From a virus, in the IMG/VR virus record IMGVR_UViG_3300036832_001089, positions 1-42,443 of that record: DNA of 42,443 nt; one strand, written 5' to 3'. The notes beneath the pieces were generated by a model that was not told the origin of the DNA, did no database searches, and saw only the letters and a program-made list of their open reading frames with translations. Of this stretch, positions 9,318 to 29,948 are shown one piece after another. A program made the position numbers and the translations under genes. Within the stretch, counting starts at the first letter, position 1. The number at the start of each line of letters is the position of its first letter.

Positions 9318-9432
9318 ATTTGTCGATGGCTGGAGCGGTGTGCCGGGCCGCTGGAAGGAACGCCGCACGCCGATAGTTGACGGTCTGGTCTACCTGATAC
9401 TGCGGCTGGGGGATGTCATTCGGGGGGAATGA
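9274..9432 (+). CDS. Possible small hypothetical protein
   Basis: A 52-aa frame from GTG at 9274, overlapping the end of the SbcC gene by 44 bases and ending with a TGA that overlaps the ATG of queE. The product runs KTKPVRGSHKPEF, GVPGRWKERRTPIV and ends in a hydrophobic stretch (LVYLILRLGDVI). Perfect fit between two genes and normal codon bias support it. No family is recognised, and the start is uncertain. Confidence 0.42.
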   Translation: MWSKTKPVRGSHKPEFVDGWSGVPGRWKERRTPIVDGLVYLILRLGDVIRGE

Positions 9433-10127
9433 TGCCCGATCATATCATGGTCAGTGAACTCTTTGGGCCGTCGATCCAGGGCGAGGGAGCCCTCGCCGGG
9501 CAATTGTCGCATTTCCTGCGCACCTTTGGCTGCCGTTACCGCTGCACATGGTGCGACAGCCTCTATGCTGTCGAGCCTAAATACAGCGGCACGACGCTGC
9601 GATTGACGGCGGACGATATCGTAACGCGGATACGCGCCTTGCCGACCGTGCCGTGGCTGACGGTGACCGGCGGCGATCCGGTCGATTGGGATTTGACCGA
9701 TGTCATTGCGGCGTTGGCCAGCGACTACAAGATCGCGGTCGAAACGCAAGGCACATTGTGGCGTGACTGGCTGGAACTCTGCGATCTCGTGACGGTGTCG
9801 CCAAAGGGGCCGTCATCCGGCATGCAGGACCGTCTCGATGCGGCGTTACTGCAAAAATACCATGTCCGGTTGCGCGCTCGCATGGTGCTGAAGATCGTCT
9901 GCTTTACCGACGATGATCTGAATTTTGCCGAGCGCATCCACAAATTCCTGGCGGACATACCGCTTTATCTCTCGGTCGGCACCGATGCTGCTGGTACAGG
10001 CCCCGACGCCGTGCTGGCACGCTACAAATGGTTGGCCGACGCCGTGATCCAGCGGCCCAGATTGGCGGATTGCACACTATTGCCGCAGCTTCATGTGCTG
10101 CTGTGGGGCCAGGAACGCGGGCGTTAG
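9429..10127 (+). CDS. queE: 7-carboxy-7-deazaguanine synthase, radical SAM enzyme
   Basis: 232 aa. It has the QueE signature GPSIQGEG (13-20), a CxxxCxxC iron-sulfur site (Cys35, Cys39, Cys42) for radical SAM chemistry, and VTGGDP (79-84). QueE makes 7-carboxy-7-deazaguanine, the shared precursor of queuosine and of 7-deazaguanine bases placed in DNA by some phages as protection from host restriction. No folE, queD, queC or DpdA-like gene is seen here, so the phage either relies on host genes or encodes them elsewhere. Two ATGs (9429, 9432) are possible starts. Confidence 0.88.
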   Translation: MMPDHIMVSELFGPSIQGEGALAGQLSHFLRTFGCRYRCTWCDSLYAVEPKYSGTTLRLTADDIVTRIRALPTVPWLTVTGGDPVDWDLTDVIAALASDYKIAVETQGTLWRDWLELCDLVTVSPKGPSSGMQDRLDAALLQKYHVRLRARMVLKIVCFTDDDLNFAERIHKFLADIPLYLSVGTDAAGTGPDAVLARYKWLADAVIQRPRLADCTLLPQLHVLLWGQERGR

Positions 10128-17396: not shown

Positions 17397-17423
17397 AGCC
17401 CCCCGATCGGGGGCTACTTTTTT
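17397..17423 (+). terminator. Rho-independent terminator
   Basis: A 7-bp stem AGCCCCC/GGGGGCT around CGATC is followed by TAC and six Ts. It is the clearest intrinsic terminator in the window and ends the 16550-17318 operon. Confidence 0.88.
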
Positions 17424-17537
17424 GTCATAGATCAATGTAGCATACGATAGTCAGGGTATGAGACATAAACCGGTCCGTTTGCCTCGCACGCTTGCCTTAA
17501 AGGCAGCGCGGCTCCGAGCTATGTGTGGAGGCGATGG
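17424..17537 (+). promoter_or_regulatory. Intergenic region with palindrome and weak promoter-like boxes
   Basis: Just after the terminator, TTGTCA (17422-17427) and TACGAT are present but at short spacing, so a promoter is only possible. Further on, TGCCTTAAAGGCA is a near-perfect palindrome, and together with GCGGCTCCGAG it is roughly complementary to GAGAGCCGTCTTTAAGGCA before the terminator. The pairing may be structural or regulatory. Confidence 0.25.
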
Positions 17538-17909
17538 ATGCGCAGGATCGCTGTGATCTATCCGCGTGACCGGAACGTCATCTACAAGACGGTTCCTGAC
17601 AAGGACATCAGCCGGGCGGCTGGCCCGGCATTGGAGATGCACAACGTCATCCGGTACGCCAACGGCCATAGCGGCAGTTATGGCTTGTTCACGAATAGCG
17701 CAGGCACACCGTTAGAGGCGGAATATTTCTGCCTGGACGGCAAGCTGTGCCACGGCCCGACCGTGCTCTATGCCTTTGACGGCCTGGGGCAAACCGTTGA
17801 TATCGTGCCACGCGCCCATCCCCAGCCGATGTGGCTGGGATCGCACGAGGCAGCATGGGCTGCGCTGTACGATGGGGTGGCGGTCAAGCCAGCGTGGTGG
17901 GAATGTTGA
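17538..17909 (+). CDS. Hypothetical protein, possibly DUF3846-like
   Basis: 123 aa. The layout (an early beta strand RRIAVIYPRDRNVIYKTVP, then YGLFTNSAGTPLEAEYFCLDG, then LCHGPTVLYAFDGLGQTVD) resembles the small DUF3846 family of phage and plasmid proteins, although I cannot confirm this without a search. GGAGG precedes ATG 17538; an in-frame GTG at 17523 is less well placed. It shares an overlap with the next gene. Confidence 0.58.
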   Translation: MRRIAVIYPRDRNVIYKTVPDKDISRAAGPALEMHNVIRYANGHSGSYGLFTNSAGTPLEAEYFCLDGKLCHGPTVLYAFDGLGQTVDIVPRAHPQPMWLGSHEAAWAALYDGVAVKPAWWEC

Positions 17910-18130: not shown

Positions 18131-18198
18131 ACTATCCCGACATCCCCTTTACGGATGCCCGTGGCGGCCTGCTTGGCCCGGTGTCGAGATAGTTTACA
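18126..18198. repeat. Long inverted repeat, 17-base arms with 16 matching
   Basis: Left arm TGTAAACTATCCCGACA (18126-18142) and right arm TGTCGAGATAGTTTACA (18182-18198) pair at 16 of 17 positions around a 39-base loop. The core ATAGTTTA (18189-18196) appears again at 18219-18226, and as ATAGTTTG at 18237-18244, upstream of a PEP-CTERM gene. The set could be a terminator, an operator array or a recombination site. No flanking transposase or integrase is present. Confidence 0.8.
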
Positions 18199-18266: not shown

Positions 18267-18287
18267 GGCCCCCTTTGCAAGGGGGCC
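18267..18287 (+). promoter_or_regulatory. Strong leader hairpin ahead of PEP-CTERM gene
   Basis: GGCCCCCTT/AAGGGGGCC is a perfect 9-bp stem with a TGC loop, 47 bases before the ATG at 18335. No T-run follows, so it is more likely an RNA stability or translation-control element than a terminator. The 18199-18334 interval otherwise holds the ATAGTTT repeats and no gene. Confidence 0.5.
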
Positions 18288-18334: not shown

Positions 18335-19108
18335 ATGCGAACCTTAGTCAGCACGATGACGGCAGCCGGGGCGTTGCTGCTGTCGATCGGAACCGCGCAC
18401 GCCGATGTGATCATCAACGGCGTCAGCTATATCGATCCCACGTCGTTCCATGTCACATCCAGCGTCGCCACGGGCAGCGATCCTGTGCTGCTAAACAACA
18501 GCACGGCATTTAGCATTCAGGACAATGGCGGGCAGAACATCAGCCAGCCGCTGACGATCTATATCGCGGTGCCAACCGGGGCACCCGCACCGGTTATTGC
18601 CAGTGGCTCTTATCTGTTCGACAGCCAACCGGCAACCCCGGTGACCGTTACACCCACCGGCACGGTGAGCGGGACGTTCTCGACGGCGAGTTCATCCGAT
18701 CTCTACACATTCGTCGGATGCGTCGCCTGCGACAACAGCTTGAACGCCAGCAATATCACCGCAGCCTACAATGCAAACAGCATTACAACGCCGAATTCGC
18801 TGACCGTGTTTACGTTCTCGGTCAACCAAGCTTTTCAGGGCAAAGACGAAATTAACTTCCTCGGCACCTTCGCGAAGGGGGACATCATCTTCCCGTTCGC
18901 CGAGAACGGCGCGGGGACCGACCATGTGACGATCTTCGACACGTCGTGGACAAACACGGGCCTCGTCAACACGACCACAACCACGCCGCCGCCACCGCCG
19001 CCCCCACCCCCGCCGCCGCCAATCCCGGAGCCGGGCTCGCTGATGGTGCTGGGCAGCGCAATCCTGATGTTTGGCTTCACCGCTCTGTGGCGGCGTCGCC
19101 GAAGCTAA
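18335..19108 (+). CDS. Secreted PEP-CTERM surface protein
   Basis: 257 aa. A signal peptide covers ~1-24 (MRTLVSTMTAAGALLLS, cleavage near AHA-DV). The mature part is a Thr/Ser/Asn-rich beta domain with a CVAC pair. It ends in 12 prolines, then IPEPGS, a hydrophobic helix and RRRR, which is a textbook PEP-CTERM sorting tail recognised by exosortase and processed at the inner membrane of Gram-negative hosts. No exosortase is encoded in the window, so host machinery would be used. Phage-encoded PEP-CTERM proteins are unusual; this may alter the host surface during infection. Confidence 0.85.
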   Translation: MRTLVSTMTAAGALLLSIGTAHADVIINGVSYIDPTSFHVTSSVATGSDPVLLNNSTAFSIQDNGGQNISQPLTIYIAVPTGAPAPVIASGSYLFDSQPATPVTVTPTGTVSGTFSTASSSDLYTFVGCVACDNSLNASNITAAYNANSITTPNSLTVFTFSVNQAFQGKDEINFLGTFAKGDIIFPFAENGAGTDHVTIFDTSWTNTGLVNTTTTTPPPPPPPPPPPPIPEPGSLMVLGSAILMFGFTALWRRRRS

Positions 19109-19116
19109 GGGCTCTT

Positions 19117-19347
19117 ATGAGCGCGCCCGTGCCGGTGGAGCAACTGACGGCATTGCGCGGGGCTATTGTCTGGCTCGCCGATGATGATAGCACGCCTGCC
19201 CCGATGCTTGAGCTTCTGCGCGCTTTGCTCGCATCGCTGGAGGCGCGCTCGACGGGCGACGAGGTGATTGAGCCGTTGCTGGGTTGGGTGGCCGGTATTT
19301 GGCCCCCCTTGGCGACGGAACTGCGCCGCCGCCTCTGCGGCCCGTAA
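19117..19347 (+). CDS. Hypothetical helical protein
   Basis: 76 aa, probably all helical (VEQLTALRGAIVWLADDD, APMLELLRALLASLEARS, GWVAGIWPPLATELRRRL). AAGGG precedes the ATG, eight bases after the PEP-CTERM stop. No family or motif is recognised. It lies between the two PEP-CTERM genes. Confidence 0.55.
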   Translation: MSAPVPVEQLTALRGAIVWLADDDSTPAPMLELLRALLASLEARSTGDEVIEPLLGWVAGIWPPLATELRRRLCGP

Positions 19348-19356
19348 AGTTAACCT

Positions 19357-19581
19357 ATGAGAGAAGGGCAAACCATAGGGAGAATACGGTTAGCCTTTCT
19401 AGAGGGCAGGCTGAAGAATCCAATCCGACCGCTCGACATCGTGATCTACTGCGGTTCTCCAAACACCGCGGAACCGTTTTTGAACAAGCACTGTCGGCCC
19501 GGTCGTCGTGCCAACACCGTCCACTTCAAGAAAATTGGACCCGCCCTGTACAACCTAGTGCCGCGTCGGCAATCGTTTTAA
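19357..19581 (+). CDS. Possible small basic protein
   Basis: 74 aa, basic, with LEGRLKNPIRPLDIVIYCGS and RPGRRANTVHFKKIGPALY. Base composition is poorer in GC than the neighbours and no good ribosome site precedes the ATG, so this is a tentative gene. The interval between 19347 and 19594 has nothing else of note. Confidence 0.38.
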   Translation: MREGQTIGRIRLAFLEGRLKNPIRPLDIVIYCGSPNTAEPFLNKHCRPGRRANTVHFKKIGPALYNLVPRRQSF

Positions 19582-19593
19582 TAGGAGGGGATC

Positions 19594-20316
19594 ATGTCGA
19601 AAGTTCTGTTAACAGCGCTGGCGAGTGTTGCCAGCATCGCGCTTGCCGTGCCTGCCAACGCCACCCTGGTCCTCAGCGCCGATTTCGGCGGCACGCTCTT
19701 TCAGTGCGCCGACAATGCGGGCTGCGATCAGAACCCGGCGGTCGGCACTCTTCAGATCGGCAATCAGGTGATCAACGGCGTCGCCGTCAACGGCTCGATC
19801 CAGACGCAGACCGCGCCCGTGGGCGGGCAGCAGATCCTGAACACGTCCTCGCTGTCGATCGTCAACACCAATTCAGGGGCGATCGCCTATACCGTCACGG
19901 TCGGCGCGACGAATTTCAACGGCCCGGTTGTCAGCTTCAACACGGCTGGATCGGGCGTCTGGCAAAACGCCAATGGCTCGACGGTCACGCTGAACTGGTA
20001 CGACGATCCGAACAACGCGCAAGGCGGTGTCCTGCCGGGTAGCACGCCCGGCACGAAGATCGACACCTTTTTCGATATGGCGGCCGGTGCGGCTGACAGC
20101 TTCTCGCATAATGGCTCCGGTTCGATCAGCGATCTGGCGCAGTTCTCGATGACCGAGCAGGCGACCGGCAACCTGATCGCGGGCGCGACTTTGCTCAATC
20201 GCGGCCAGACCGAAATCAAAAACCCGGCAGCGGTGCCGGAGCCGGGCTCGCTGGCGTTGTTGGCGACCGGGCTGATCGGCATGGGAGTGTTTTTGCGCCG
20301 TCGCCGCCGCGCCTAG
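19594..20316 (+). CDS. Second secreted PEP-CTERM surface protein
   Basis: 240 aa. It has a signal peptide (SKVLLTALASVASIALAVP, cleavage near ANA-TL), a Gly/Asn/Thr-rich beta domain with one close Cys pair (FQCADNAGCDQ), and a VPEPGS tail followed by a hydrophobic helix and five arginines. The tail is the exosortase sorting signal. AGGAGGGG sits before the ATG. The mature domain is not obviously a copy of the 18335 product, so the two were probably acquired separately or have diverged greatly. Confidence 0.87.
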   Translation: MSKVLLTALASVASIALAVPANATLVLSADFGGTLFQCADNAGCDQNPAVGTLQIGNQVINGVAVNGSIQTQTAPVGGQQILNTSSLSIVNTNSGAIAYTVTVGATNFNGPVVSFNTAGSGVWQNANGSTVTLNWYDDPNNAQGGVLPGSTPGTKIDTFFDMAAGAADSFSHNGSGSISDLAQFSMTEQATGNLIAGATLLNRGQTEIKNPAAVPEPGSLALLATGLIGMGVFLRRRRRA

Positions 20317-20799: not shown

Positions 20800-21660
20800 A
20801 TGTCGCGCCCCGAGCTTCGCAATCATAAGCCGCCGCGCCTGTCGCAACGGCAACGCGACCGGGCAGCGGTGCAGCGCCGTCACAAATTCGCCGAGGCGTA
20901 TGTCGCGCTGCGCGAGAACGGCAAGAGCGATACGGCGGCGGCAGCAGAAGCGGCGTTACACTGCGGTTATGCGACCGGTTATGCGTGGCATCTGATCAAC
21001 CACCCGCAGGTAAAGGCCTTTGTCGAAGGCCGCGTCGCCCGGCATCTGGAACGGGCTGAAGTTAACAGCGAAGCGATCCTGCGCTACTGGTGGGACATCG
21101 CCACCTGTGAATTGCCGTTCCCGCCCGCAGGCCCCTGCCGCTATTGCTGGGGCGTTGATCACCAGTACCAGTACACGCAGTCCGAAGCCCGCACCGCCTT
21201 GCGCAAGCACACCGGCGACCAATTGAAAAAGGCGGTGCATCTGCGCGTCCCGTTCGACGATCTCGGCGGCACCGGTTTCGACCGCACCAAGAAGCCGCAT
21301 CCGCACTGCCCGGAATGCAACGGCCAGGGCCGCAATTATTTGCTGGTGATCGATCGTGACAAGCTGTCCCACGCGCAGCGGCACGCGATCGACGAAATCC
21401 GGGTTCACAAGGACGGCAGTGTCAGCCTGAAGATGCGCGACCGCTCCAGGGCCATGGAAAATCTCCAGAATTTGATGGGGCTGATCCAGCCGAGGAAGCC
21501 GTTGGAAGTGCTCGATCCGCAGCGCCCGCTGGGCGAGAATGTCGATATCGTGTTGCAGACCGCGATCGACCAAGGCCTCTTAAAAATGCCGCTATCGCCG
21601 TTACCGGTCCTTGAGCATGACGGACGTACCGAGCAACTGGCAGACCTTGACGCTGGCTGA
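20800..21660 (+). CDS. Terminase small subunit
   Basis: 286 aa. The N-terminal half has the helix-turn-helix expected of DNA-recognising small terminases (RRHKFAEAYVALRENGKSDT, EAALHCGYATGYAWHLINHP). The C-terminal half contains CRYCWG and CPEC knuckles that could form a zinc site, which is seen in some phage small terminases. It would recognise the packaging site and hand DNA to the large subunit encoded immediately downstream; the genes overlap by 44 bases. The start has no strong ribosome site. Confidence 0.78.
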   Translation: MSRPELRNHKPPRLSQRQRDRAAVQRRHKFAEAYVALRENGKSDTAAAAEAALHCGYATGYAWHLINHPQVKAFVEGRVARHLERAEVNSEAILRYWWDIATCELPFPPAGPCRYCWGVDHQYQYTQSEARTALRKHTGDQLKKAVHLRVPFDDLGGTGFDRTKKPHPHCPECNGQGRNYLLVIDRDKLSHAQRHAIDEIRVHKDGSVSLKMRDRSRAMENLQNLMGLIQPRKPLEVLDPQRPLGENVDIVLQTAIDQGLLKMPLSPLPVLEHDGRTEQLADLDAG

Positions 21661-23167
21661 GAAGCTCGATCTCCTCAAGGGCCTCAAGACCAGACTGATC
21701 GATCTGAAACGCTCCCCCGAGCGGTATCTGGCGGATTACCAGGGCGATCCGGTCGGCTTTATCCAACGCGGGCTGGGGCAGGCGACCGAGCCTAGCTGGG
21801 CGGGCTGGATGACCGTCATCAAGGCCGCCTTTGGCCAGCCGCTGACTGCCGAGGAACACGAATTCTTTTACGAGATCGCCGGGGGCCGCGCCCCGCCCAG
21901 CCGACAGGTCAAAGAGTTTTGGGCGATCGTCGGCCGCCGGGGCGGCAAGGACAGCGTGGCAAGTTTAATCGCGACGTATCTGTCCCGGTTTGCCGACACG
22001 GCAAGATTGCGCCTGGGGGAAGAGGGGATCACCGCCTGCCTTGCCACCGATCGCGACCAAGCCGAGATCGTGTGGAAATACTGCCGGGGCTATTTCGAAG
22101 CCAAACCAGAGCTTTACGCGTTCCTGCGCTCGACCAAGATGACCGGGCAGCGCATCCAGTTGATGAACAAAGTCGAGATCCGCGTCGCCACCAACAACTA
22201 CCGGGCACCACGTGGCCGCGCCATCGTCGCGGGCATCCTCGACGAAGTGGCCTTCTACCGCGACGAGGACAGCGCGAACCCCGACATCGACACGTATATG
22301 GCCTTGCGACCGGGCATGCTGATGATGCCGGGCTCGATGATCATCGGGATCTCGTCGCCGCACCGCCAGAAGGGCCTGTTGTTTCAGAAGTTCGAAGAGC
22401 ATTACGGCCAGGACAATGACGACGTGCTGGTCATCAAGGCCCCGACGCGGCGGATGAATCCGCTGATCGATATTCTGGAGCCGGGCCTCATCGACAAGGC
22501 GATGGAGGAAGATCCGGACCGTGCCGCTGCCGAATACGGTGCGGAATTCCGCCGCGATCTGGAGGATTACGTCAGCCGCGAGGTGGTGTATGCCAGCGTC
22601 GCCAGGGGCGTTAGGGAAATCCCCTACGACGATCTGCGCAAGGGCCGCTATGTCGGCTTTGTCGATCCCTCGGGCGGCAGCCGCGACAGCTTTACGATGG
22701 CCATCGCGCATCTCGACGAGGCCACCGGCAGGGGCATTTTAGACTTTGTGCGCGAGATCAGGCCGCCCTTTGCGCCCTCGGAAGTGGCGGCGACGTTTGC
22801 CCAGGAATTCGCCCGCTACAAGATCTACAAGGTGCGCGGCGATCGCTACGCGGCGCAATGGCCGGTCGAGCAATTCGCGATCAACGGCGTCATCTACGAA
22901 CAGTCGGAAGTGGTCAAAAGCGATCTCTACCGCGATTTCCTGCCTGCCTTGAACAGCCGCCGCATCCAGCTTCTCGATCATACCCGGATGATCAACCAGT
23001 TGCTGGGGCTGGAGCGGCGCACGGTGCGCGGCGGCAGGGACAGCATCGATCATCTGCCCGGAGCCAATGACGACATCATCAACGCGGCGGTCGGCGCGCT
23101 CTTGCAAGTGGTCGGGGACGATCGCCTCGTATCGGTGTCGAAATATCTGCGGGCCTTTGGCGGTTAG
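21617..23167 (+). CDS. Terminase large subunit
   Basis: 516 aa. ATPase motor: Walker A-like GRRGGKD (106-112), Walker B ILDE (207-210) with the catalytic Glu, and GISSPHRQ coupling motif. Nuclease domain: first metal-binding Asp in GFVDPSGG (Asp350), and a late Asp pair in GANDDIINA. It packages phage DNA into proheads and cuts concatemers. ATG 21617 overlaps the small subunit gene; TTG at 21611 is the other choice. Its stop is followed by a hairpin that is repeated 341 bases downstream. Confidence 0.92.
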   Translation: MTDVPSNWQTLTLAEKLDLLKGLKTRLIDLKRSPERYLADYQGDPVGFIQRGLGQATEPSWAGWMTVIKAAFGQPLTAEEHEFFYEIAGGRAPPSRQVKEFWAIVGRRGGKDSVASLIATYLSRFADTARLRLGEEGITACLATDRDQAEIVWKYCRGYFEAKPELYAFLRSTKMTGQRIQLMNKVEIRVATNNYRAPRGRAIVAGILDEVAFYRDEDSANPDIDTYMALRPGMLMMPGSMIIGISSPHRQKGLLFQKFEEHYGQDNDDVLVIKAPTRRMNPLIDILEPGLIDKAMEEDPDRAAAEYGAEFRRDLEDYVSREVVYASVARGVREIPYDDLRKGRYVGFVDPSGGSRDSFTMAIAHLDEATGRGILDFVREIRPPFAPSEVAATFAQEFARYKIYKVRGDRYAAQWPVEQFAINGVIYEQSEVVKSDLYRDFLPALNSRRIQLLDHTRMINQLLGLERRTVRGGRDSIDHLPGANDDIINAAVGALLQVVGDDRLVSVSKYLRAFGG

Positions 23168-23552: not shown

Positions 23553-25733
23553 GTGCCACTGGTCGATCAATTTGGCCGGACCATCGACAACCGCACGCCG
23601 ATCGAGCGGGCGGCGGCGCGCGAGCGGGCCGAGCCGGTGCCTGCGCAGCCGTTGCGCCATGCCGCCGAGCAAAAGGTGGCGTTTGCCCAGAAGACGCTCG
23701 ACAGCTACCAGAACTTCGTCAGCCACACCGGCTTTGGCACCGACAACGTCAACAGCTTTGGCGGCTACGGTTTTTACCCGATCACCCGTCTGCGGATCAT
23801 CCTCGACTGGGCGTTCCGGAGTTCCTGGGTGTGCCGCGTCGCCTGCGAGGCCGTCGCCGAGGACATGACCAGGGAAGGCTTTGATCTCGGCAGCGAGATC
23901 GATCCCGACGCCAGCCAGGAGATCTACGCCGCCTTCGATCAAACTTACGCGGTGTGGGACCGCCTCGCCGAAGCCATCACATGGTCGCGGCTGTATGGCG
24001 GTGCGGGCATCTACATCATGATCGACGGGCAAAAGCCCGACACGCCATTGCGCCCCGAGACGGTCGGGCCGGACCAGTTCACCGGGCTCTTGCCGTTGGA
24101 CCGCTGGCTCGTGCAGCCCACCCTGAACGAACTCGTTACCGACAAGGCCAGCGCCTCGTTTGGCCGCCCGAAATACTACACGACGGTCGGCGACACGCCG
24201 TTGCCGGGCAACACCAAGATCCACCACACGCGGTTCCTGCGGTTTGACGGCGCGAAGCTGCCGTATTACCAGCGGCTCTCCGAGAACATGTGGGACATGT
24301 CGGTATTGGAGCCGATCTGGGACCGGCTTCTGGCCTTCGACATGACGACGGCCTCGACCGCGCAACTGGTCAACCGCGCCAGCCTCAGAACGCTCGCCAT
24401 CGAGAAGTGGAAGGAAACGGTCGGGACCGGCGGCTCGATGCTGGAAGCCCAGCTTGCCGCGATTGAATGGCTGCGCCGCACACAAGTTAACGAAGGCATC
24501 ACGATCATCGACAGCCAGGACCGCCTCGAATACGCCTCCTATTCGTTTGTCGGGCTCGACGCCGTCCTGATCCAGATGGTGCAGCAACTGGCCGGGGCGT
24601 TGGGCATCCCGCTTGTGAGGTTCTTTGGTCAGTCACCGGCCGGGCTCAACAGCACGGGCGAAAGCGACTGGCGCAACTACTACGACATGATCCGCACGAC
24701 GCAGCAGCGGCGGCTCTACACCAAAGTGGATTTTATCCTCGACTGCGTCGCCCGCTCGCTGCGCATCAAACTGCCCAAGGGCTTTACGTGGAGCTTCAAT
24801 CCGCTGTGGCAGTTGCAGGATGCCGAGAAATCCTCGATCGCCTCGCAGATCACGCAGACCGTGCTGAGCGCCTATGAGGCGGGCGTCCTGCCCAACAGCG
24901 CCATCGTCTTGAAGGAACTCAAGCAGCAGGCCCAGAAGACGAATATCTGGACCAACATCACCGAGGAGGAGATCACCGCTGCTGAGAATGCGCCACCGCA
25001 AGTGCCCGGCATGCCGGGGATGGGCGGCGCTGGCATGCCGCCCGGTATGCCGGGGAATGCACCGGGCGGCATGTCGCAACCGGGTGGCCAACAAGGCCAG
25101 CCCGATCAGTTCCTGCCCGGCGGCTCGCCTCCTGCGTCATCTGGACCGGTGGATTCGGGGGGCGTTGCCATCGGTGCAGTGGGGGAAGGGCCGGATGACA
25201 ATATCCGGTCCTTTCTTCCCCGTCGCGGGTTTCTGCCCGGCGGCCATGGCGAGGATACGCCCGCCCCAGCACGGCGCGGTCATGGCAAGCCGATCTTCCA
25301 CGTCTACTACAACCGCGACGAGGATCTGCCAGGGCGGCAGATCAAGTTCCTGGGGCACGACATCGTCATCGAGCGCGAGAAGGGCGAGCCGCGCCCCGAA
25401 GGCTCGTCGCAGGGCGCGGTCATGGCGGTGCCTTACGGGCATTTCCCCGGCACCCGCGCCAATGACGGCGACGCGTTGGACTGCTTTGTCGGCGATGCCG
25501 CGGACAGCAACCGCGTCTTTGTCATCGATCAGGTCAATCCCGACACCCGCGAATTCCATCAGCCAAAGGTGTTCCTGGGCTTCCGCAACAGCGACACGGT
25601 GCTCGACGCGTTCAACAAGTTCTATGCCGATGGGCGCGGCCCGCAGCGCTTTGGCAGCGGCAAGGAATACACCTTGCGCGATTTTGCCAAGTGGCTCGAC
25701 CGCTTCCGCATCCGGGCAGCTTCATCAGCATGA
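23553..25733 (+). CDS. Portal protein (DUF1073-like) fused to an inorganic-pyrophosphatase-like domain
   Basis: 726 aa, longer than usual portals. Residues ~1-480 look like a DUF1073-type portal (FRSSWVCRVACEAVAEDMTR, ITWSRLYGGAGIYIMIDGQ, GALGIPLVRFFGQSPAGLNS, ESDWRNYYDMI). A Pro/Gly/Met-rich linker follows. The last ~150 residues (IFHVYYNRDEDLPGRQIKFL, YGHFPGTRANDGDALDCFVG, KEYTLRDFAKWL) resemble the InPase-like domain known from phage and mobile-element polyvalent proteins, with acidic residues suited to metal binding. The portal forms the DNA entry ring. Whether the added domain is cut off by the head protease is unknown. GTG start with TAAGGAA. Confidence 0.83.
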   Translation: MPLVDQFGRTIDNRTPIERAAARERAEPVPAQPLRHAAEQKVAFAQKTLDSYQNFVSHTGFGTDNVNSFGGYGFYPITRLRIILDWAFRSSWVCRVACEAVAEDMTREGFDLGSEIDPDASQEIYAAFDQTYAVWDRLAEAITWSRLYGGAGIYIMIDGQKPDTPLRPETVGPDQFTGLLPLDRWLVQPTLNELVTDKASASFGRPKYYTTVGDTPLPGNTKIHHTRFLRFDGAKLPYYQRLSENMWDMSVLEPIWDRLLAFDMTTASTAQLVNRASLRTLAIEKWKETVGTGGSMLEAQLAAIEWLRRTQVNEGITIIDSQDRLEYASYSFVGLDAVLIQMVQQLAGALGIPLVRFFGQSPAGLNSTGESDWRNYYDMIRTTQQRRLYTKVDFILDCVARSLRIKLPKGFTWSFNPLWQLQDAEKSSIASQITQTVLSAYEAGVLPNSAIVLKELKQQAQKTNIWTNITEEEITAAENAPPQVPGMPGMGGAGMPPGMPGNAPGGMSQPGGQQGQPDQFLPGGSPPASSGPVDSGGVAIGAVGEGPDDNIRSFLPRRGFLPGGHGEDTPAPARRGHGKPIFHVYYNRDEDLPGRQIKFLGHDIVIEREKGEPRPEGSSQGAVMAVPYGHFPGTRANDGDALDCFVGDAADSNRVFVIDQVNPDTREFHQPKVFLGFRNSDTVLDAFNKFYADGRGPQRFGSGKEYTLRDFAKWLDRFRIRAASSA

Positions 25734-26183: not shown

Positions 26184-26597
26184 ATGCGGGAACTCGATGA
26201 TAACGATCCACGCCTGATCGCCGCGGCCGATCTGCTGCTGGAGGCGCTCCAGCCGTTTGTCGGCCAGCATTTCGACGCGGGCAGGCTGGATGAAGTGTGC
26301 GATCTGGTGCAGCAGCACCGTATCGCCTTCCGGCGCGCCTACGACGCCGATTTCCCGCCTTTGGTGCCGTTTGTGCTGCCGTCGATCCGCTTTATCCACT
26401 TTGTGCGGGCCGATATCGACGACCGCGAGATCCGCATCCAGTTGCGCAATCTCCTCGTGCAGCTTTCCCGGCGTGGCCCCGGTGTCCTGCCCCCGGCGAT
26501 CGAGATCGTCCGGGCAGTCAAGCAGTGCTGGCCGCGTTACCAGCCGCCGGTCGAGGAATTCCGTGCCGATCCCTTGATGAGGCAGAGGCTGAATTGA
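26184..26597 (+). CDS. Hypothetical helical protein of the head module
   Basis: 137 aa, mainly helical (DPRLIAAADLLLEALQPF, LDEVCDLVQQHRIAFRRAY), with PLVPFVLPSIRFIHFVRADI in the middle. No motif is recognised. Its TGA overlaps the TTG start of the next gene, implying coupled translation in the head operon. A neck or adaptor-like role is possible from position only. Confidence 0.55.
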   Translation: MRELDDNDPRLIAAADLLLEALQPFVGQHFDAGRLDEVCDLVQQHRIAFRRAYDADFPPLVPFVLPSIRFIHFVRADIDDREIRIQLRNLLVQLSRRGPGVLPPAIEIVRAVKQCWPRYQPPVEEFRADPLMRQRLN

Positions 26598-29086: not shown

Positions 29087-29674
29087 TTGGCTGCCGTCGA
29101 AATCACTATTAGTGGCGTCTTGTACGACAAGTACAACCGCACACAACAGAACGTCGTCCTATTCGGGGAAGCAAGCCTCACGGGGCTACATGTCGGTGGC
29201 GGGCCGATGCCGCCGGGCGGCGGTGGCGGGCCGGTTGATCCCGGTTATGGTCAGCCAACGCCGCCGGGGCAGATTTGGGGCGGGCGTCCACCCTCGGGTG
29301 GTGGTTGGCCGGGATGGGGACCAGCGCCACCCTGGTATCCAGGGCATCCTGAGCACCCGATTCCGCCGACTGTCTGGCCACAGCCTCCTGGCGGTGGTGG
29401 CGGTGGCGGACAGCCGCCGCTCGGCACGTGGGGAGGAGACAGTCCGTGGCCCGGCTATGCCACGCCGCCGATCTACATTCCGCCTCTGCCGCCGGATACC
29501 ACTCCACCAAGCCCCGGCGACCCGACCACCCCGTTGCCGCCTCCGCAAGGCAGCCCGGGCTGGCCGGTGCAGGGGATCGTGCCACCGCCTTACATCGTGG
29601 TCATGTACCCCGGCGTCGGTCCGGTCATTGTCGCGCCACCCGAAACCAGTGCGACAACTCCCCCGACGAGCTAG
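29087..29674 (+). CDS. Gly/Pro-rich protein, probable virion component
   Basis: 195 aa. TTG start preceded by AGAGGAGGAG at good spacing. The first ~45 residues form a beta-like domain (AAVEITISGVLYDKYNRTQQ, VVLFGEASLTGLHV). The rest is low-complexity Gly/Pro/Trp/Tyr sequence (PPGGGGGPVDPGYGQPTPPG) and ends PPETSATTPPTS. Such extended tails occur in structural or cell-surface binding proteins. No named family is recognised. It lies between a terminator and a 13-bp hairpin, so it may form its own transcript. Confidence 0.6.
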   Translation: MAAVEITISGVLYDKYNRTQQNVVLFGEASLTGLHVGGGPMPPGGGGGPVDPGYGQPTPPGQIWGGRPPSGGGWPGWGPAPPWYPGHPEHPIPPTVWPQPPGGGGGGGQPPLGTWGGDSPWPGYATPPIYIPPLPPDTTPPSPGDPTTPLPPPQGSPGWPVQGIVPPPYIVVMYPGVGPVIVAPPETSATTPPTS

Positions 29675-29719: not shown

Positions 29720-29735
29720 TCTCGCGGCTTGCATT

Positions 29736-29948
29736 TTGACGTTTCACTCACCGGACGGCTCCGAGCTTTTGGTGCAGTCGGACATCATTAGAGTTATCCG
29801 ACCGATTACCTCGGCGCATCGCGAACACGTCGCCCCCGGCACCAATGCTGTGTTGTATCTGGGCGTGCGGCAGGCCGGTTTTGCTGTCATCGAAACCGCC
29901 GCGACGGTATTGCAGATGGTCCGCGACTGCAAAGAGGAGCATCGCTAA
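29736..29948 (+). CDS. Small hypothetical protein
   Basis: 70 aa (TFHSPDGSELLVQSDIIRVI, NAVLYLGVRQAGFAVIET), beta-rich with a helical end and clear protein-like character. Starts at TTG 29736, without a clear ribosome site, 17 bases after a strong hairpin. Its TAA overlaps the ATG of the next gene. The order of small strands recalls short phage beta-proteins but no family can be named. Confidence 0.5.
   Translation: MTFHSPDGSELLVQSDIIRVIRPITSAHREHVAPGTNAVLYLGVRQAGFAVIETAATVLQMVRDCKEEHR

Follow-up and report, generated by a model that had tools for sequence, protein, structure and literature searches.

The window, by which we mean the whole stretch of DNA analyzed, is an IMG/VR virus contig of 42,443 bases. 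It contains two same-strand genes, PEP1 and PEP2, whose products each combine a putative signal peptide, an ectodomain rich in beta structure, and a PEP-CTERM tail (Table 1). A preliminary description had reported two PEP-CTERM proteins at this place, between the replication and packaging modules of a phage. Both ORFs are indeed intact, and when we searched the whole record with PF07589 we found exactly two sites, one at the 3′ end of each gene and both scoring above the cut-off; the same model matched 0 of 14 control genomes. The position was likewise borne out by PHROG and Pfam matches, with a DNA polymerase and a DnaB-like helicase encoded upstream of the pair and TerS, TerL, a portal protein (phrog_146), and the major capsid protein (MCP; phrog_264) downstream. 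The PEP genes are co-directional with the packaging genes and lie behind a terminator-like hairpin. Perfect hairpins occur upstream of PEP genes in L004, L047, and L061 as they do in the window (9–12 bp, with differing sequences), and terminator-like hairpins stand 3′ of some pairs elsewhere (L005, L052).

Table 1. Positions in the window of PEP1, PEP2, their flanking features, and genes whose relatives accompany PEP genes in other contigs
Feature	Position	Strand	Evidence or remark
Terminator-like hairpin with T-run	17397..17415	+	Possible left boundary of the cargo transcription unit
Left-flank gene of cargo site	17523..17909	+	51–54% identity to L006, L007, L008
Perfect 9-bp hairpin GGCCCCCTTTGCAAGGGGGCC	18267..18287	+	Immediately 5′ of PEP1
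PEP1	18335..19108	+	Putative signal peptide, beta-rich ectodomain, proline linker, PEP-CTERM tail (IPEPGSLMVLGSAILMFGFTALWRRRRS)
PEP1 PEP-CTERM sorting signal	19019..19099	+	PF07589, E 2.3e-6, 24.3 bits
Small ORF (MSAPVPVEQLTALRGAIVWLADDD...) between PEP1 and PEP2	19117..19347	+	Relatives adjoin PEP1 in G001, G002
PEP2	19594..20316	+	Putative signal peptide, then an all-beta ectodomain and PEP-CTERM tail (VPEPGSLALLATGLIGMGVFLRRRRRA)
PEP2 PEP-CTERM sorting signal	20230..20304	+	PF07589, E 1.0e-8, 31.8 bits
TerS, right flank of cargo site	20800..21660	+	PF03592
TerL, backbone marker	21611..23167	+	phrog_9 and phrog_2
Proline-rich "HPI" protein	29087..29674	+	Relatives directly adjoin PEP genes in L003, L004, L032, L047
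Small protein (FHSPDGSELLVQSDIIRV...)	29721..29948	+	Relatives near PEP genes in L003, L004

Three features elsewhere in the window were also recorded. Between 26297 and 38108, at least six phage proteins (ORFs starting at 26297, 30837, 32565, 33773, 34945, and 36762) have in common a motif resembling xxRDEGG(K/Q)(F/W)(S/T)xGGG, which may be a shared linker for processing or targeting. The radical SAM protein encoded at 9429–10127 is QueE-like in appearance, which suggests 7-deazaguanine chemistry in this phage. Finally, the portal protein (23553–25733) has an additional C-terminal domain at about residues 595–716 that is also found in large phage proteins, for example in DarB-like and endolysin PHROGs.

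The PEP1 reading frame opens at 18155; we preferred the ATG at 18335 as its start because homologues begin at the signal peptide. The putative signal peptides, MRTLVSTMTAAGALLLSIGTAHA and MSKVLLTALASVASIALAVPANA, were read by eye and agree with the starts of homologues, in keeping with the preliminary description; they end in AHA (PEP1) and ANA (PEP2) with no cysteine at the cleavage site, and hence without a lipobox. Scored as a lone protein, PEP2 reached 29.1 bits with PF07589, above the Pfam cut-off of 20.7, and PEP1 reached 19.8 bits, slightly under it; by some models the PEP1 tail is marginal. Within the PEP1 ectodomain, DP...ATG[ST]DPVLLN is invariant, and C..CDNSLN is present in closer relatives. 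AlphaFold2 predicted a confident all-beta domain followed by a C-terminal helix for PEP2 (pLDDT 82.5) and gave a moderate model for PEP1 (pLDDT 68.8), consistent with the beta-rich domains described earlier. Foldseek returned weak beta-sandwich matches, including carbohydrate-binding modules and adhesins, and a sequence search of the PDB gave no convincing match. Because the TM-scores of all structural matches were low (about 0.2–0.3 on the query), the fold class says little about function, and we set these weak beta-sandwich similarities aside as functional evidence. PEP2 and some of its relatives have a weak long-range similarity (24–30 bits, under the cut-off) to floc_PepA (NF033554), a flocculation PEP-CTERM protein; PEP2 itself, weakly similar over its full length, scored 30.1 bits against a curated cut-off of 80 bits and is not a member of that family.

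One explanation that draws on these similarities is that the pair acts as a surface adhesin that binds host polysaccharide, so that infected cells would clump or stay in the biofilm and progeny would be freed among new hosts. In host bacteria, PEP-CTERM proteins contribute to flocculation and bind polysaccharide (PMC9850573, PMC12188702), and the sub-cut-off resemblance to floc_PepA and the beta-sandwich folds point the same way. The low TM-scores, however, count against this explanation, and any gain for a phage that lyses its host is hypothetical. We consider an adhesin or clumping role unlikely, though it is the main rival to the receptor masking that we favor below.

To relate the site to others in the same phage lineage, we searched with TerL and found six contigs with relatives. 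L006, L007, and L008 keep both flanks of the window cargo site, with identities of 51–54% for the left-flank gene, 61–65% for TerS, and 84–86% for TerL, and contain other small genes in between. Since the flanks are conserved and the content of the interval differs, we regard the window pair as variable cargo in a phage genome. L006 is part of a 114 kb record, G004, which has the same backbone (MCP 92%, TerL 86%) and a PEP-CTERM pair of its own, located 3′ of the major capsid gene; its PEP1 is at another site from that of the window and only ~35% identical to it. In a third genome, G003 (111 kb, capsid 73%), the pair adjoins an SNF2-like helicase. G004 also contains two tyrosine-recombinase ORFs (534–839 and 1712–2089), and the window homologues of the genes that bracket them are nearly adjacent (5912 and 6062). 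Judged by the shared flanks of the cargo site, the PEP pair is almost certainly phage-borne.

Clustering of the ectodomains, with signal peptide and tail removed, yielded four main families: PEP2-type (17 ORFs), PEP1-type (about 11), FAM2, and FAM3. FAM2, which is absent from the window, pairs with PEP2-type genes and is present in at least 162 IMG/VR contigs. Tandem same-strand pairs were found at 16 loci, three of them near-identical (the window, L003, L005, L032, L035, L039, L041–L044, L048–L050, L057, L058, and L061), with partners separated by anything from a slight overlap to about 490 bases and combined as PEP2+PEP1, FAM3+PEP1, PEP2+FAM2, FAM3+FAM2, and a few others; some PEP loci are unpaired. 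Using hhalign on trimmed cores, we detected no homology outside the tail between PEP1 and PEP2 or between PEP1 and FAM2, and a weak but suggestive match between PEP2 and FAM3 (E 2e-4). Across PEP1 and PEP2 relatives dN/dS was about 0.10–0.37, with some synonymous sites near saturation, and the genes are under purifying selection.

The preliminary description had proposed a search for homologues in other phages of the same lineage, and these were found both in syntenic relatives and in unrelated phages. G001 and G002 encode PEP1 homologues of 89–92% identity and otherwise resemble the window only in the small neighbors of the PEP cluster and, in G002, in a portal C-terminal domain. Neither their head genes nor their packaging genes are related to the window's, and their terminases match phrog_2 but gave no match to window TerL. 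In G001 and G002, PEP1 has three companions, one proline-rich protein and two small ones; the "HPI" gene of the window lies ~9 kb from its PEP genes. From these comparisons, the cassette moves between unrelated phages. Together, the PEP1- and PEP2-related families occur in dozens of phage contigs, frequently as tandem same-strand pairs. These collections are metagenomic, and many of the carrier contigs, though not all, have confirmed phage hallmark genes; the carriers are probably soil phages, as read from collection and host type rather than computed. A single-protein search of viral contigs with PEP2 gave no match, but an alignment-based search did find relatives. None of the families tested matched any of 50,697 phage records or any PHROG, and neither PEP1 nor PEP2 matched plasmids.

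Among 84,980 species genomes, which we searched with patterns for the PEP1 family only, the sole PEP1 match was L035, a contig of 5 kb on which three PEP-CTERM genes in tandem adjoin a terminase-small-like gene and one that belongs to phrog_1761. We take L035 to be a mis-binned phage because the MAG that contains it has no exosortase and no further PEP-CTERM gene. This locus bears on the possibility that the pairs are an assembly artefact, host genes having been joined to phage contigs, which the preliminary description had named as what would overturn its reading. PEP-CTERM proteins are otherwise known from bacterial genomes, and the presence of L035 in a bacterial assembly shows that mis-binning occurs. 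An artefact is nevertheless exceedingly improbable: the pairs come from many independent assemblies with phage genes on both sides, and the sole PEP1 homologue in species-genome contigs is itself on a phage-gene contig in an exosortase-free MAG. For the window, host contamination was ruled out by the synteny of its flanks with L006–L008 together with the fact that this sole genome-contig match is a phage fragment.

We next compared the sorting tails, from which L062 and L064 were excluded as their tails belong to another family. Within each pair the tails are of one type, either all PEPxxW or all non-W (PEPGSL-like): both partners have PEPxTW-like tails, similar to PEPxxWA-CTERM (NF035944), in L039 and L041–L044, and both have PEPGSL-like tails in the other pairs. 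Tails of partners from the same phage were more alike than shuffled ones (p<0.0002; 0.018 within the non-W group), with p-values that ignore phylogeny. FAM2 tails are of at least four kinds, PEP, PEPxW, VPLPA-like, and PGPxxGAG-like (L075–L154, 80 of the at least 162 loci), in classes set by our own patterns and with VPLPA matches under the curated cut-off. Tails of the related phage proteins thus resemble PEPxxWA-CTERM and VPLPA-CTERM (TIGR03370) at scores under the curated cut-offs; unlike those sorting domains, they sit on ectodomain families that also bear PEPGSL-like tails. Most simply, the tail would be matched to the sorting enzyme of the host, a fit judged from tail type alone. Common descent or gene conversion could account for part of the likeness within pairs, as the loci are not phylogenetically independent. 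It appears reasonably likely that in many soil phages host exosortases of several types display phage ectodomains in a modular, often two-protein arrangement, in which ectodomains are conserved and tails are exchanged per host. The earlier observation was, in this respect, understated: what recurs is a phage module spread by horizontal transfer, and the tail types agree in each pair.

The matching of tails would also be expected if the proteins were decoys that occupy the host exosortase, block display of host PEP-CTERM proteins, and loosen the polysaccharide coat, the tail being the part that needs to fit the host. For a decoy, however, neither a recurring partner nor a second conserved ectodomain, with both under purifying selection, would be required, and we consider this role improbable.

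The absence of an exosortase from the window, noted in the preliminary description, was confirmed with PF09721, which also found none in the 27 records tested, two of them over 110 kb; therefore the host would have to supply the enzyme. With syntenic flanks and pairs embedded among phage genes, the proposal of phage cargo relying on a host exosortase thus gained support, and from their sequences PEP1 and PEP2 are very probably substrates of that enzyme. They resemble bacterial PEP-CTERM proteins (PF07589/TIGR02595; Haft et al. 2006, PMC1569441) in having a beta-rich ectodomain of low homology, a C-terminal PEP motif, helix, and Arg cluster, and, as read by eye, a signal peptide. Unlike the bacterial proteins, they are phage-carried, form conserved families and tandem pairs, and come with neither a sigma-54 site nor an exosortase of their own. 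Host PEP-CTERM genes are mostly solitary behind large intergenic regions, and in Proteobacteria most have a sigma-54-related site (PMC1569441). In the 300 bases upstream of phage PEP-CTERM genes we found such a site in 0 of 16 regions, which speaks against a sigma-54 promoter there; tandem, compact, and lacking this site, the phage genes differ from typical proteobacterial host PEP-CTERM genes.

We propose that the infected cell would make both precursors and export them via Sec using their N-terminal signals, and that the host exosortase would then recognize the PEP-CTERM tails and cut off the membrane anchor. The beta-sandwich ectodomains would end either within the surface polysaccharide or on the outer surface itself, where PEP1 and PEP2, probably jointly, would alter the surface of the infected cell. 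Masking of the receptor, on infected cells and on the debris left after lysis, would amount to superinfection exclusion. The display step appears well supported by the predicted sorting signals; expression, processing, surface location, joint action, and receptor masking we infer. Taken as a whole, a cargo pair displayed by host exosortase, most likely for superinfection exclusion, is the best explanation we can offer and a plausible one, at slightly less than even odds. Receptor masking as the final function is a tentative assignment.

This assignment is favored because in L039, L044, and L048 the pair is close to genes for tails or tail fibres, as llp of T5 adjoins its receptor-binding gene (PMC9586334), and because the pair in L061 is followed by an Acb2/Tad1-hairpin anti-defence gene (PF24729, 6974–7234). 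T5 Llp and Cor (PMC9586334) are likewise encoded by phages and exported to the envelope of the host, as is predicted from sequence for the PEP pairs, and in some PEP loci the genes are likewise close to tail or tail-fibre genes. Unlike Llp and Cor, the PEP proteins have an exosortase sorting signal instead of a lipobox, come as two proteins, and have no known sequence relation to them; receptor blocking by the PEP pair is a candidate role that genomic context supports. Genes of the phrog_1761 family are also close to pairs (L035:4591–4791 and L048:5016–5231), and the small genes beside the pairs in L061, L035, and L048 form a possible anti-defence island. Known superinfection-exclusion proteins, Llp for one, each consist of a single small lipoprotein, in many cases produced early. 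Against superinfection exclusion, the PEP pairs are, unlike such lipoproteins, often among packaging and head genes, and the window pair adjoins terminase genes, not tail fibres.

That location among head genes would be explained if the proteins were virion parts, such as capsid decorations, and the genes are often in the packaging or head region (the window, G001, G002, G004, L068, and L109). A signal peptide and a membrane anchor, however, direct proteins away from the cytoplasm, where capsids are assembled, which makes this very unlikely. Alternatively, the pairs could be morons or serve lysogenic conversion, to the advantage of the bacterium carrying the phage. Tyrosine-integrase matches in four carrier contigs (G004, G016, G032, and G034) would be in line with this, but most carriers have no integrase, G003 (111 kb) and the window among them, although fragments prove little in this regard. 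Moreover, the polymerase, clamp loader, RecA-like, and SbcCD-like genes that the window phage encodes for itself are characteristic of lytic phages. We therefore regard a benefit to a lysogenic host as improbable, and counted the absence of a tyrosine integrase from 17 of 21 records toward receptor masking.

A search of 5.4 million papers, few of them from subscription journals, yielded no description of PEP-CTERM proteins encoded by phages, and phage-encoded exosortase substrates have apparently not been described before. If our reading is correct, soil and biofilm phages would have a widespread means of altering infected-cell surfaces, and exosortases would gain a role in phage-host conflict. 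The pairs would also provide conserved protein families with a directly testable function, and the sorting tail might serve to indicate the host group of uncultured phages.
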